Assembly: GCA_025937835.1 (NCBI GenBank)
Contig: JAICQO010000007.1
Coordinates: 1-64,000, forward strand
Reading direction: 5' to 3'
DNA length: 64,000 nucleotides
Origin: Polyangiaceae bacterium
GTDB lineage: Bacteria > Myxococcota_A > Polyangia > Polyangiales > Polyangiaceae
The position numbers and the translations under genes were made by a program. The notes under the pieces were generated by a model that saw only the letters and a list, made by a program, of their open reading frames with translations, did not search any database and was not told the DNA's origin. Below are positions 12,730 to 18,023 of the stretch, piece after piece. Positions within the stretch are counted from its first letter, which is position 1. Every line of letters begins with the position of its first letter.

Positions 12730-13542
12730 ATGCGATCCGCCACTCGCTCGACACTGCTCCTCGGAGCGCTCGCCGCGCTCGTCACCCTTGCCTGTGAAGA
12801 AGACAAGCCGGCCCCCGCTCCTGCCGCGACCGCCACGGCACCGGCCGTGCCGACGCCGGCTCCCACGCCGAGCCCAGCCCCCACGCCCGAGCCAACCGCG
12901 GCGGCCGCCCCGAAGCCGAAGAAGAAGCTGTCCGACTGCCCGAAGACCAAGCAGGTCGAGTTCGAACAAAAAGAGATCGAGCTCGAGGTGCGGCGCAAGC
13001 TGCCGAAGGCCGAGGGCCCGATCACCACCGCCGATCTGCGCAAGCTGCGCTCGTTGAATCTGTCGCAGACGAAGCTGTCGGAGCTCGACGTCTGTCTCTT
13101 CGGGCACATGACCGGCCTGAAAGAGCTGTTCCTCGGCCAGGGCGACTTCGACGACCTGTCACCGATCGCGGGCGCCACGCAGCTCGAGTCGCTGCGCGCG
13201 TCGATCAATCACGTGCGCGACATTTCCCCGCTCGAGAAGATGACCAAGCTCGACCGGCTCGATCTCGGCCGCACCCAGGTAGCCGACCTCAAGCCGCTCG
13301 CCGCGCTCACCAAGCTGACCGAGCTGCAGCTCGACGACACGCAGGTCGAAGACGTCTCGCCGCTGGCCGGCCTGACGCTGCTCGAGACGCTGAGCCTCAA
13401 GCGCACCAAGGTGAAGGACGTCTCGGCGCTGAAGAACCTGAAGAAGCTGAAGACGCTCTACATCGGCGGCTCGCCGCTCGACGAGGACGTGATGAGCGTC
13501 GCCCCCGTGCGCGCGAACGGCACCAAGATCATCGCTGATTGA
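12730..13542 (+). CDS. Leucine-rich-repeat lipoprotein
   Basis: 270 residues. The signal peptide ends in a VTLAC lipobox with C22. A Pro/Ala-rich spacer of about 40 residues leads to at least six leucine-rich repeats of the 22-residue SDS22 type (L-x-x-L-x-L-x-x-T-x-V-x-D-V-x-P-L) between about 100 and 255. It contains no enzyme motif and is likely a periplasmic or surface protein-binding scaffold. Its 3' end overlaps the convergent cysH-like gene by 14 bases. Confidence 0.85.
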   Translation: MRSATRSTLLLGALAALVTLACEEDKPAPAPAATATAPAVPTPAPTPSPAPTPEPTAAAAPKPKKKLSDCPKTKQVEFEQKEIELEVRRKLPKAEGPITTADLRKLRSLNLSQTKLSELDVCLFGHMTGLKELFLGQGDFDDLSPIAGATQLESLRASINHVRDISPLEKMTKLDRLDLGRTQVADLKPLAALTKLTELQLDDTQVEDVSPLAGLTLLETLSLKRTKVKDVSALKNLKKLKTLYIGGSPLDEDVMSVAPVRANGTKIIAD

Positions 13543-14536
13543 GCTCGGAGTGCAGCCCGCACTCGCGCTTGGTCGCCTCTTCCCACCACCAGCGCCCGGC
13601 GCGCTCGTGCTCGCCGGGCCGGATCGCGCGCGTGCACGGCGCGCAGCCGATCGACACGAAGCCGCGCTCGTGGAGCGGATTGTACGGCACGCCGTGGTCG
13701 CGGATGTACTGCCACACCTCGCCGAGCGTGGTGAACGCCAGCGGGTTCCACTTGAGCAGCGAGCCCGAGGGCCCGGCCATGCCCGGGTCCGACTCGACCA
13801 GCGAAACATTGCTGCGCGTCGGGCTTTGATCGCGGCGCTGCCCGGTCATCCAGGCGCGGTAGCTCGCTAGCGTCCGGCGTAGCGGCTCCACCTTGCGGAT
13901 CCCGCAGCACTCGCCGTGTCCGTCCTCGTAGAAGCTGAATAGGCCCTTCTTGACTACCAGCGCCTGGACGGCGGGCGCCTGTGGAAACGCGGCGTGAATC
14001 GGCACGCCGTAATGCTTGCGTACGCGCTCGATGAACTCGTACGTCTCGGACGCGAGGCGCCCGGTGTCGAGCGTGAACACGCTGAACGGCTTGCCCGTCT
14101 TCACGGCCATGTCGATCAACACCACGTCTTCCGCCCCGCTGAAGGCGATCGCAAGCTCGCTGCCGAAGAGCTCGAGCGCGCGCGCCACGATTTCTTCCGG
14201 ACGCCGTCCGGAGAGCTCCGCCGCGAGGGTCGCCGCGTCGGGCACGCCCGCCGCCGCCTCCACCGGCTTCGGGCTCAGAACCTCGCCGATCAGCTTGAGC
14301 ACGCTCGTGTAAACGACGCTCTGCTCGCCGCGCTTCACGATGAAAAACGGTGCCAGGTCGATGCCGTGCTGCGATGCCAGCAGGTAGCCGGGCGAAGACG
14401 GATCGCGTACGTCGGCGACCACGACCTCGTCGATCCGCTCCCACAGGCCGCGGCGCCGCAACAGCTCCTCTGCCTGCACGCATTTCTGGCAGGGTTCGCC
14501 GTTCTCGAGCCGCTTCTTGATCATCGTGACGTGCAT
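13529..14536 (-). CDS. cysH: Assimilatory adenylylsulfate/PAPS reductase with N-terminal glutaredoxin-like domain
   Basis: 335 residues from the ATG at 14536, chosen because GAAGGAT lies just upstream; longer in-frame sequence to 14677 is rejected. Residues 1-90 resemble a glutaredoxin/thioredoxin domain with C16-x-x-C19 and a FFIVKRG strand. Residues 110-330 are the CysH reductase: SGAEDVVLID (P-loop-like), TLDTGRL, then CC in GECCGIRK and CAPC in GCAPCTRAI. The CC...CxxC set binds the [4Fe-4S] cluster of enzymes that reduce APS, so APS is the likelier substrate. The product is sulfite for cysteine synthesis. No other sulfur gene is nearby. Confidence 0.88.
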   Translation of the reverse strand: MHVTMIKKRLENGEPCQKCVQAEELLRRRGLWERIDEVVVADVRDPSSPGYLLASQHGIDLAPFFIVKRGEQSVVYTSVLKLIGEVLSPKPVEAAAGVPDAATLAAELSGRRPEEIVARALELFGSELAIAFSGAEDVVLIDMAVKTGKPFSVFTLDTGRLASETYEFIERVRKHYGVPIHAAFPQAPAVQALVVKKGLFSFYEDGHGECCGIRKVEPLRRTLASYRAWMTGQRRDQSPTRSNVSLVESDPGMAGPSGSLLKWNPLAFTTLGEVWQYIRDHGVPYNPLHERGFVSIGCAPCTRAIRPGEHERAGRWWWEEATKRECGLHSELNQR

Positions 14537-14553
14537 CTGCTCGGATCCTTCGA

Positions 14554-14565
14554 CGGAATTTTCCG
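14554..14565. promoter_or_regulatory. Palindrome CGGAA-TT-TTCCG upstream of cysH
   Basis: A perfect 12-base palindrome sits 18 bases upstream of the cysH start codon. The same half-sites with other two-base centres occur at 16026 and 28653 in non-coding DNA. A regulator site is possible but unproven. Confidence 0.35.
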
Positions 14566-14751
14566 GGCTTCGAGCCCAGCAAGGCGGACAAGCATGGGTC
14601 CTGGCCCCGGCGGCGCAAGCCACCCGACCCGCGAGGATCGGGGCAACCACCGGCACCTTCTTACGCGAAAACTGCAATTCGCTTGCGAAGCGCCCGCGGA
14701 GGAGCTAATTCGCCGAACCGAATGGCCAATCGAGCAATCTGGAACGTCCGT

Positions 14752-14958: not shown

Positions 14959-15510
14959 ATGCTCACGATCGCGTCCCGCGCGACTCCGGCGCTCGTTCTT
15001 CTCCTCGGGACCCTGGCTGCCGGCTGCGGTGACGGCCGCTACGACGCCAAGACGCCCGGCGAGCCGATCGGCCGGTTTGCGATGCGCGGCTCGCTCGACC
15101 GGGACGAGTGCAAGGCCACCGTGCTCGGCGTGGTCGACCCGTGGGAGTTCGATCTCCGCCTCTCGCGCTCGGTCAACGATCTGTATTGGTTGAACGGCCG
15201 GGAGGCGATCTCGGGAGACATCGCCTCGGACGATCGCACCTTCAAGTTCGACACCCACGTGGATGTTCCGCTGATCCCAGCGCGCAATGGTCGTGGTGGC
15301 TGCACCTTGACGCGACGCGATCGCGCAGAGGGCGAGCTCACGCCGGACGCCTCGAGCGCGAGCGATCTCGCGGGCTCCATCTCGTTCACGTACGAGCCGC
15401 GAGTCGGCTCGGAATGCTCTGAAATCATTGGTGTTCCTGGCGGCTTCGATCGCCTGCCCTGTCGCGTCGATTTCGATCTCCGAGGCACTCGCTCGGACGA
15501 CGACGAGTGA
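14959..15510 (+). CDS. Small lipoprotein of unknown function
   Basis: 183 residues. The signal peptide ends LAAGC, lipidated cysteine at residue 23. The mature part is mostly beta (VDPWEFDLRLS, TFKFDTHVDVPLIPA, SISFTYEP) with four further cysteines (in DRDEC, GGC, GSEC and LPC) that could form two disulfides. It has no known domain. It is followed by a long non-coding stretch. Confidence 0.7.
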   Translation: MLTIASRATPALVLLLGTLAAGCGDGRYDAKTPGEPIGRFAMRGSLDRDECKATVLGVVDPWEFDLRLSRSVNDLYWLNGREAISGDIASDDRTFKFDTHVDVPLIPARNGRGGCTLTRRDRAEGELTPDASSASDLAGSISFTYEPRVGSECSEIIGVPGGFDRLPCRVDFDLRGTRSDDDE

Positions 15511-15863
15511 CCTGACCGCATGCGGGTGGCTGCGCGAAACACGCGCACCCTCTGCGACGAATCGTGTCTCCGGGCTGGTGACGAGCGCGATCGCCGTGCT
15601 ATGTACCTCCGTACAGTGCAGCGTGGAGCGATCTCCCGGAATCATCCGGCGGGGGAGCACCCCCGTAGCGGCACAGGGCCGAGAGACGGCGATGTCCCTA
15701 TCGCAGTCTCCCTTGCGGAAGCGCCCTCATTATCTCGGACAGCCTCGATCGAGCCTTGGCTCTCGTTTGGTTGTGCGGGATCGGGGCGTCCGGCGATTGC
15801 CGGAGGAGGTCGAGTCAATGACAAGTAGTTGTACCCACACCCCGGAGGTGCGCCCGATCTAGT
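15511..15863. other. Non-coding stretch with tandem perfect hairpins
   Basis: No credible gene is seen. Four tight hairpins occur: 15636-15649 (CCGGA-ATCA-TCCGG), 15650-15665 (CGGGGG-AGCA-CCCCCG, directly abutting the first), 15683-15710 (GAGAC-G-GCGAT, six-base loop, ATCGC-A-GTCTC) and 15790-15803 (CCGGC-GATT-GCCGG). The density and neat four-base loops suggest a folded RNA rather than a set of protein sites. I tried to match RNase P, tmRNA, 6S, SRP and common riboswitch cores by eye and found none. Confidence 0.35.
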
Positions 15864-16025
15864 CTCGTCCCTCTGCGCCGCGTCATTGGTGACGCTCGGC
15901 GTGTCGGACGAGCGCCTGGATAGCGACCAGGCAGACCGTTGCCCCAGGCCCTAAGCCGAGGCGGTAAACGGCAGGTTTTCTCGGGTTTGCTGCGCGTCGA
16001 CCGTGCGGCGGCCGCGAAGGCCTCT

Positions 16026-16037
16026 CGGAACCTTCCG
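16026..16037. promoter_or_regulatory. Palindrome CGGAA-CC-TTCCG
   Basis: A perfect 12-base palindrome within the structured stretch. It has the same half-sites as the elements at 14554 and 28653. It may be part of the RNA fold rather than a protein site. Confidence 0.25.
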
Positions 16038-16061
16038 GGGTTTCAGGGATCGCTACGGCGA

Positions 16062-16101
16062 GGCCGGGTCTCCACCAGGGGACCCGGCCCGTTTTCATTT
16101 T
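16062..16101 (+). terminator. Strong intrinsic terminator
   Basis: Nine-base perfect GC stem GGCCGGGTC / GACCCGGCC with a ten-base loop, followed by CGTTTTCATTTT. It lies 160 bases before the next start codon, so it ends an RNA made upstream or acts as an attenuator. Confidence 0.65.
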
Positions 16102-16262
16102 GGGGACCCAGGCGCCAATAGCCACGCGCTGTTGCTTCGGACCTGAGCCGAATACGCCTTCCCCGAACCTGCAGGGGGCCCCCGCTCCGCTGTTGCCCGA
16201 ATCAGGCCCCTGGTCTACGACGCTGCTGCCGCAGATCCGCGGCGGGAGGCCCCTTCCGTTTC

Positions 16263-18023
16263 ATGACGCTGCTCTCGCTCGTTTCCGAATCCTTCGCGAG
16301 CTTCTGGTCCGCCCCCAGCAGTTTCTGGAGCAACCCGCTCTTCGAAAAAGAAAAGTGGGAGGTATTCACCAAGGTGCTGCGGATCGGCCTGGCGATGACC
16401 GGGGCGCTGCTCCTGATTTACGAGATCCGCGCGCGGCGCATGGCTGTTCGGATCTCGGAGCGCACGCGGCGACGCTTCGCGTGGTTCCTGACGATCCTCG
16501 CGTTCTTCACGTTCTTCGACTTCTTCAACCCCAACGTCCGGTACTCCGAGTACTACCACCGGCACGAATTTTACCATTACTACCTGGGCTCGAAGTACTT
16601 CAAAGAGGTCGGCTACACGCGCCTCTACGAGTGCACGCTCGTCGCCGAGGTGGAAAACGGCCGTCGTGATCAGGTCAAGGACAGGGAGTTCCGCGATCTC
16701 TCCGTCAACCTGATCAAGCCGATCTCGCAGACGTACATCCTGACGGATCCGGATCAGTGCAAGAAGCACTTCACGAAAGAACGCTGGGAAACGTTCCGGA
16801 AGGAGATCGATTGGTTCTACCGATCTGCCGCCGGTAGCTACTGGGAGGGCATGCAGAAGGACCACGGCTACAACCCGCCGCCGGTCTGGACGATGACCGG
16901 CAAGTTCTTCGGTAGCTTCGGTCAAGCCGACGACGGCTTCTTCAAGATCCTCGCCAGCATCGACGTCGTGCTGCACGCCGCGATCATCCTCTTGTTCTAT
17001 TGGGCGTTCGGCTGGAGAACCATGGCCGTGGCGGCCGTGTTCTGGGGCGCGAACGCTCCAGCGGACTTCTATTGGACGGGCGGCGCGTTCCTCAGACAGG
17101 ACTGGCTATTTCTGCTGGTGGCCGCGCTGTGTTGCGCGCGCCGGCGCTATTTCGTGCTGGCCGGGTTTGCTCTCACGTGGTCGGCGTTGCTGCGGATCTT
17201 CCCCGGCATTTTCGTGGCCGGCTGGGCGATCATCATCGGTATCTACCTGATTCAGAGCGTGCGCTTCGGGCCGCGGAAGATCGCTGGCGACAAGGCCACC
17301 GGCCTGTTGCGTTACCTGCACCCGGATCACCGGCGCGTGATCATGGGCTGCGTGCTCGCGCTCGGCGTGTTGGTGCCTGCCAGCATGGCAGTCTGCGGCA
17401 CGGACTCTTACAAGCAGTTCTACAATCACACGCTGAAGACCCACCAGAACACCCCGCTCACGAACCACATGGGGCTCGAGAGCATGATGGTGCACAACTG
17501 GGAAGGCCGCATGCGCTTCGGCCGGGACGACAACCTCGACGATCCGTTCATGGATTGGAAGAAGGGTCGCCTCGAGCGGTTCCGCAATCTACGACCGCTG
17601 TTCATCGCGATCGTGCTCGGGATCTTCGGCTGGACGGTGTGGGCGCTCCGGCGCACCAAGCTGCTCTGGGTCGGGACGGCGCTCAGCCTGCCGCTGGTGA
17701 TGAGCCTCACCAACCTCACCTGTTACTACTATTCGATGTTCATCGTGGCGGCCGCGCTGGCCTCGGTGAGACCCATGCTCGGCGCGCCGATATTGATGGC
17801 TAGCGGTATCGGCAAGCTGCTCCAGTACGCGCCGTGGGGTTTCTACTGGGTAGACGATCGCTGGGTAGCCGAGAGCTGGCTGTACTTCACGCTGTGCGTG
17901 CTGTTGCTTTACGGCTACTCACGGCCCTTCAGCATGGCGCGCCTCAAGGCCTGGTGGGACGGCAAGCCCGAGCCGCGCTCGTCGCCCCCTAGCCTGTCGG
18001 CGAAGCCCACGCCCGCCGAATAG
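16263..18023 (+). CDS. Multi-pass membrane protein, possibly GT-C type glycosyltransferase
   Basis: 586 residues. Helices are visible at about 42-55, 75-95, 240-260, 265-285, 295-345, 365-385, 455-475, 480-515 and 545-560. The long polar segment between helices two and three (about 100-235) has FYHYYLGSKYF and many aromatic and charged residues, typical of an external loop near a membrane active site. The layout and the FYWTGGAFLRQDW and LTWSALLRIFPG segments recall polyprenyl-phosphate-dependent (GT-C, GT87-like) mannosyltransferases, but no catalytic motif is certain. A GGGAGG ribosome-binding site lies 13 bases before the ATG. No sugar-polymer genes adjoin it. Confidence 0.65.
   Translation: MTLLSLVSESFASFWSAPSSFWSNPLFEKEKWEVFTKVLRIGLAMTGALLLIYEIRARRMAVRISERTRRRFAWFLTILAFFTFFDFFNPNVRYSEYYHRHEFYHYYLGSKYFKEVGYTRLYECTLVAEVENGRRDQVKDREFRDLSVNLIKPISQTYILTDPDQCKKHFTKERWETFRKEIDWFYRSAAGSYWEGMQKDHGYNPPPVWTMTGKFFGSFGQADDGFFKILASIDVVLHAAIILLFYWAFGWRTMAVAAVFWGANAPADFYWTGGAFLRQDWLFLLVAALCCARRRYFVLAGFALTWSALLRIFPGIFVAGWAIIIGIYLIQSVRFGPRKIAGDKATGLLRYLHPDHRRVIMGCVLALGVLVPASMAVCGTDSYKQFYNHTLKTHQNTPLTNHMGLESMMVHNWEGRMRFGRDDNLDDPFMDWKKGRLERFRNLRPLFIAIVLGIFGWTVWALRRTKLLWVGTALSLPLVMSLTNLTCYYYSMFIVAAALASVRPMLGAPILMASGIGKLLQYAPWGFYWVDDRWVAESWLYFTLCVLLLYGYSRPFSMARLKAWWDGKPEPRSSPPSLSAKPTPAE

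Follow-up and report, generated by a model that had tools for sequence, protein, structure and literature searches.

A conserved structured RNA with a short open reading frame in Sorangium and related bacteria

The 64,000-nucleotide stretch of Polyangiaceae DNA that was analysed here (the window) holds, between a lipoprotein-like gene and a membrane-protein gene, a segment rich in hairpins at 15511-16101, which raises the question of whether an RNA is encoded there, whether it is a known one, and what it could be for. The + strand of this segment (591 nt) has a minimum free energy of -301 against a shuffled mean of -266.5 (z -4.29), and 0 of 100 dinucleotide shuffles equalled it. The reverse complement likewise folds better than its shuffles (z -3.03), so that folding energy alone is little proof. 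At the gathering threshold, the only Rfam matches in the 64-kb window were two tRNAs about 34 kb away; at E values up to 10 the interval 15450-16320 gave nothing credible (scores far below threshold, e.g. PVT1_3 at 16.5 bits), and 20 related loci searched with Rfam 15 returned tRNAs only. Rfam includes a model for the Downstream-peptide motif, and its glutamine-type aptamer had no match at the gathering threshold in the window and no credible one at E up to 10 in 15450-16320. Known RNA families were thus rejected as the identity of the RNA, and we found no description of it in the open-licence literature that was searched.

When 97 relatives were searched at the DNA level, clear homologues turned up in the genus and family of the window. 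They fall into two blocks, which correspond to 15616-15665 and about 15780-15853. The search also returned E-values of 0.001-1 in nearly every genome, and these are mostly GC-rich noise. Fifteen regions were taken from this search, two of which (L042 and L043) were dropped as spurious by eye, while L041 was left out of the alignment inspection. The first alignment comprised 13 homologues including the window, with a core reaching from a promoter-like element to the stop codon of a small open reading frame (ORF), and 11 of the 13 were used to build a covariance model, R1. Two later models, R2 (29 rows) and R3 (27 rows, holding 29 of 36 pairs), were made from subsets picked partly to keep the alignment below 400 columns. 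The 5' part of the RNA and its two ends, all on the + strand, are as follows.

15597-15605, + strand: extended -10 promoter-like element TGCTATGTA, pattern TGnTAnnn[TAC]
15616-15621/15669-15674, + strand: helix P1, enclosing P2, P3 and P4 (15616..15674); 6/6 pairs changed on both sides
15625-15628/15633-15636, + strand: helix P2; 2/3 pairs changed on both sides
15637-15640/15645-15648, + strand: helix P3; 3/4 pairs changed on both sides
15649-15655/15660-15666, + strand: helix P4; 7/7 pairs changed on both sides
15683-15687/15706-15710, + strand: hairpin P5; 5/5 pairs changed on both sides, 81.3% of cells paired
15721-15726/15784-15789, + strand: helix P6; 6/6 pairs changed on both sides, 91.9% of cells paired
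15790..15803, + strand: hairpin P7, CCGGC-GATT-GCCGG, immediately 5' of the Shine-Dalgarno sequence; 97.5% of cells paired
16062-16098, + strand: intrinsic terminator with a 12-bp stem, a 4-nt loop and a T-rich tail (hairpin 16062-16089 plus T-tract)

RNAalifold applied to the 13-homologue alignment predicted 25 pairs, 12 of them with changes on both sides. When the alignment was enlarged to 73 sequences, the named structure could pair in 93.1% of 2349 cells, and the compensatory base changes in relatives by which the structure was to be checked are present, 31 of the 36 pairs being changed on both sides. The covariation score was 0.502, compared with 0.158 after shuffling and 0.04-0.11 with the strands slid against each other. 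The 73 sequences had been fitted to the model, which makes such counts lean towards the structure, although, given the slid controls and how large the effect is, this bias is of little concern. Covariation is strong in six of the seven helices and little in P7, since that hairpin is nearly invariant, and an independent covariation scan ranked the same helices highest. Chance hairpins in GC-rich intergenic DNA, the explanation with which a reverse strand that also beats its shuffles would agree, are refuted by this covariation; the breadth of occurrence and the conservation of the small ORF, described below, also speak against them, and we give this explanation hardly any probability. That the RNA is a genuine conserved structured family is, judged from these comparisons, close to certain.

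P6 (15721..15789) encloses a variable hairpin region and is preceded by a conserved GGAA. Several of the order's families (L113, L118, L121, L123 and others) lack P4 or have something else in its place, and the 5' domain therefore has a removable arm. Two further sets of contacts were considered and set aside: a pairing of the P3 loop with the start region (UGGU/ACCA), seen by eye, is inconsistent between clades, and long-range pairs beyond P1-P7 in the covariation scan (columns 179/192 of the core, for instance, with 65% paired) resemble clade signal.

With R1, matches were obtained in 69 of the 108 family genomes (E up to 0.1) and in 97 of the 183 order genomes (E up to 0.01), the best E-values reaching 1e-62, training sequences included. 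Beyond the order, R2 matched 22 of 116 class genomes and 16 of 140 phylum genomes, and R3 matched 32/116 and 19/140, respectively. The R2 matches in class genomes outside the order were full-length, mostly at 1e-7 to 1e-11 and at weakest 1e-4, and the sole carrier outside the class was one genome of the phylum (G335), at E 1.1e-13. Many of the genomes with no match are drafts, and the filters used in large-set searches drop weak matches. Within the window's own genus, G001 (84% complete) and G004 (88%) had no R1 match, and are either incomplete drafts or true losses. The RNA is nearly always present in a single copy per genome, with the exceptions of G058 and G179, which have two matches each. 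A pattern scan found it in the named strains Sorangium cellulosum So0157-2, So ce26 and So ceGT47, and also in metagenome-assembled genomes labelled Labilithrix luteola and Byssovorax. On this distribution, the RNA is a new structured family without an Rfam entry, its taxonomic home being the class of Sorangium and its relatives, and it is one that soil myxobacteria such as Sorangium appear from these matches to have retained over long evolutionary times. The counts per 100 members that follow are based on 100 member loci, L124, L146 (a partial match) and L170-L174 being excluded.

Where does the RNA begin and end? In 49 of 100 members, the 30 nt that precede P1 contain the TGnTAnnn[TAC] pattern, at a distance of 16-21 nt from P1, whereas shuffles gave a mean of 4.3 and a maximum of 11. 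From the element at 15597-15605, transcription would start at about 15611-15613. At the other end, a terminator-like hairpin with a T-rich tail is present in 87 of 100 members. In the window, the hairpin at 16062-16089 was the sole terminator found between 14800 and 17000, a scan that is not significant by itself because shuffles average 1.6. The best explanation is a free-standing + strand RNA of about 490 nt, from about 15612 to the terminator at 16062-16098. The original prediction had described an orphan structured RNA over the whole of 15511-16101, a run of hairpins from 15511 onwards, a strong intrinsic terminator at 16062-16101, no known RNA core, and possibly a new small RNA. The terminator is there, the strand does have strong structure, the Rfam check agreed that no known family is involved in the window, in 15450-16320 or in the 20 related loci, and a small RNA that is new is what the conservation, the covariation, the RNA's own promoter-like element and its terminator point to. 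The 5' boundary is what had to be moved, as the initial ~100 bases are not part of the conserved RNA and the hairpin at about 15531-15548 lies outside it, given a promoter-like element at 15597-15605 and a first conserved helix at 15616.

The other suggestion was that the segment, as a leader, could control the membrane-protein gene at 16263. Members of the window's genus and of near genera do have this order, a small lipoprotein-like gene upstream of the RNA and a membrane-protein gene downstream. In Sorangium-type loci (L082, L083, L087, L094, L099 and L107), however, the two have changed sides: the lipoprotein-like gene follows the RNA, and the membrane gene precedes it in reverse orientation. 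Genomes that are more distant have other genes next to the RNA, with an unrelated one immediately downstream (names assigned by eye from the starts of the proteins). Simple gene calls put this next gene on the opposite strand, convergent with the RNA, at 22 of the 76 loci examined. Since the downstream genes differ and are convergent in 22/76 loci, the leader hypothesis was rejected, and the changing neighbours together with the promoter-like element make it most sensible to treat the RNA as an independent gene.

As to the neighbours themselves, the lipoprotein-like gene (14959-15510) had no Pfam match and the membrane protein (16263-18023) scored below the Pfam threshold; the pair flanks the RNA in many of the family's genomes, in one or the other of two arrangements, and both look like uncharacterised families. 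Further upstream, 13529-14677 on the - strand encodes a PAPS reductase-domain protein (E 1.5e-49) that is syntenic in the genus, the domain match spanning residues 175-351 of 382 only. Four loci from a single genus (L155, L156, L157 and L161) have a tRNA gene on the same strand as the RNA (both minus), about 260 bases further downstream.

At the centre of the RNA lies a small ORF, which the original prediction missed: its statement that no protein frame was convincing holds for long frames. The following elements, again on the + strand, belong to this part.

15802-15809, + strand: Shine-Dalgarno (SD) sequence GGAGGAGG, a purine run before the ATG
15818-15862, + strand: 14-codon ORF MTSSCTHTPEVRPI, stop TAG; conserved in length and stop, with no detectable selection on the peptide
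15839-15848, + strand: 5' strand of helix P8, ACCCCGGAGG, inside the ORF; identified as the longest ungapped helix with the downstream segment and by a family-wide test
16032-16041, + strand: 3' strand of helix P8, CTTCCGGGGT, before the terminator; support is family-wide

An SD-type purine run 6-11 nt before an ATG was seen in 73/73 of the first members and later, by pattern, in 99/100, the hundredth (L038) being within the first 73. All 100 aligned members have the ATG followed by an ORF of 12-21 codons. In 95 of 99 its length is 12-17 codons, a count that shuffles reach in 10.9 on average and in 19 at most and that is 14 and 4 in the +1 and +2 frames; the stop codons are TAG (53), TAA (24) and TGA (23). 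The models include the ATG and stop columns, so that matches are biased towards both, not towards frame or length. Ten further matches were outside all models, and the nine that were readable all had the SD, the ATG and an ORF of 12-19 codons (9/9); for the tenth, L207, the extracted segment missed the element. By these counts the length of the ORF is selected.

The encoded peptide gave a different picture. Across 21 close pairs, each independent of the others, 92 codons had changed and 18 of these changes were synonymous, a fraction of 0.196 versus 0.220 in column permutations (p 0.73), and no codon-level selection on the peptide was detected, so that the test gives no support to a conserved peptide. 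Serine recurs at codon 3 and glutamate at codon 10. The serine at codon 3 is encoded by AGT in 49 of 50 cases, compared with 3.3% of the serines in flanking genes, hence the constraint is on nucleotides; this fits a need for a weakly structured start region and not for the residue.

The nucleotides of the ORF are further involved in P8, in which its second half pairs with the segment directly 5' of the terminator. In the window this is a 10-nt helix, 15839-15848 with 16032-16041, and the stop codon lies inside P8, between its two strands. Among the 87 members with a recognised terminator, pairing with the member's own pre-terminator segment had a mean of -29.3 kcal/mol, versus -24.7 kcal/mol with the segments of other species; the double-centred permutation Z was -10.4 and 0 of 2000 permutations were as good, in a test that ignores relatedness, and the own partner ranked first in 11 of the 87. 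Support is uneven from member to member: against dinucleotide shuffles the mean z was -1.46 (n=100), at most 5 of 100 shuffles were as good in 37 of 100 members, and the window's own P8 had a z of 0.0. As an alternative to P8, pairing of the SD with the pre-terminator segment gave a weak signal, with a permutation Z of -2.6. The motif CCGGAGG is duplicated, with one copy in P7/SD and one in the ORF, which hints at the idea, and we offer it as an idea only, that a freed 3' strand of P8 could pair with the SD and close initiation.

A short ORF that ends within a helix, with a terminator next, is the geometry of trp-type leaders, and could suggest a ribosome-mediated transcription attenuator of the downstream gene. 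A similar layout is described for the fthC motif (PMC11109978). Given downstream genes that are unrelated, that are convergent in 22/76 loci and one of which, the window's, lies upstream and reversed in Sorangium-type loci, we regard an attenuator as very improbable. The main rival is a leader, riboswitch-like or protein-binding, that controls a functional micropeptide of 14 residues. A large multi-helix domain right before a strong SD, the universal ATG and stop, and the recurrent Ser and Glu codons would all agree with it, and the Downstream-peptide/yfr6 RNAs of cyanobacteria are a precedent (PMC2864571). However, there is no synonymous excess, codon 3 is nearly always the same triplet, P8 pairing largely accounts for codons 5-11 and the peptides of distant members are dissimilar; weak peptide selection could be hidden because P8 pairing restricts synonymous freedom. 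We consider the micropeptide unlikely, and evolution seems to preserve the length of this ORF of ~14 codons, not its peptide.

The reading that we prefer, to which we give about an even chance, is that of a small RNA in which the fold and the translation of the ~14-codon ORF are coupled, such that the act of translation would matter and not the peptide. It can be built on parts that comparison of the genomes has established, namely P1-P7, the SD and ATG in the gap between P7 and P8, the start, frame and stop of the ORF, P8 and the terminator. The RNA would be transcribed and translated, with ribosomes loading at the exposed SD/ATG between P7 and P8. A ribosome would then translate the ~14 codons, unzip P8 and finish within it, and the fold of the 3' half, perhaps through stability or activity in trans, may report or depend on translation, refolding being its presumed purpose. 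The 5' domain could gate ribosome loading via a putative ligand or protein. More tentatively, the family may be a class-wide translation sensor, a ribosome-gated RNA switch in which the passage of a ribosome over ~14 codons would be the signal and the peptide irrelevant, which would act in trans or on its own stability and in which the 5' domain would set loading. We also considered a dual-function regulator, pairing with target mRNAs and with the ORF as a secondary feature, and regard it as improbable: the RNA is free-standing, has its own promoter-like element and terminator, occurs once per genome and has changing neighbours, as would be expected of such a regulator, whereas the start, stop and length of the ORF are among its best-kept features and no conserved single-stranded seed was recognised by eye beyond the start region. 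If coupling to translation is true, the RNA would be a clean case of translation as a regulatory act, and a selected ORF start, length and stop with no detectable peptide selection is unusual for a free-standing RNA. The host bacteria are ones whose large genomes, natural products and multicellular behaviour are well known; the gene is conserved, single-copy, absent from Rfam and testable in cultured Sorangium strains, and the covariance model from this analysis is ready for use in annotation.

In regards to known systems, tmRNA also is an RNA with an internal short reading frame, whereas the RNA here starts by SD and ATG and has no tRNA-like ends. RF00023 had no match in the window and a separate tmRNA was found in 5 of the 6 genomes of the order that were searched, so that identity was rejected. 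The draft of the window's own assembly (G000) is the one with no tmRNA above the Rfam cut-off, the five relatives having one, which is probably an assembly gap or a divergent copy. SgrS/SgrT and RNAIII are dual-function small RNAs with functional peptides; like them, the RNA here is of regulatory size and a free-standing transcript with a small ORF as judged by sequence alone (promoter-like element, terminator in 87/100 and ORF). In trp-type leader attenuators, an ORF of ~14 codons overlaps a helix, the stop is inside the helix and a terminator follows. The RNA has this arrangement in common with them, a short ORF with its stop inside a helix preceding the terminator, and differs in that no regulated operon and no run of one regulatory codon are seen here. 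In the fthC uORF motif of Streptococcus, two helices likewise flank the SD and AUG, the second often with an in-frame stop, and a terminator follows, the motif lying upstream of one gene, that of 5-formyltetrahydrofolate cyclo-ligase (PMC11109978); the RNA here has a large extra 5' domain instead, and no constant downstream gene. Both trp-type leaders and the fthC motif serve such a gene, which is missing for this RNA: the identity of the next gene varies, and at 22 of 76 loci it lies on the other strand. The Downstream-peptide motif, or yfr6 RNA, of cyanobacteria is related to the glnA motif and is an RNA of ~250 nt formerly taken for noncoding, with ORFs of 17-100 residues in which synonymous changes support a conserved coding sequence (PMC2864571). 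The two share a structured 5' part right before a short ORF and have no tie to one protein family, and the RNA described here is set apart by its ~14 codons with no detectable codon-level selection and by a conserved 3' helix that holds the stop codon.
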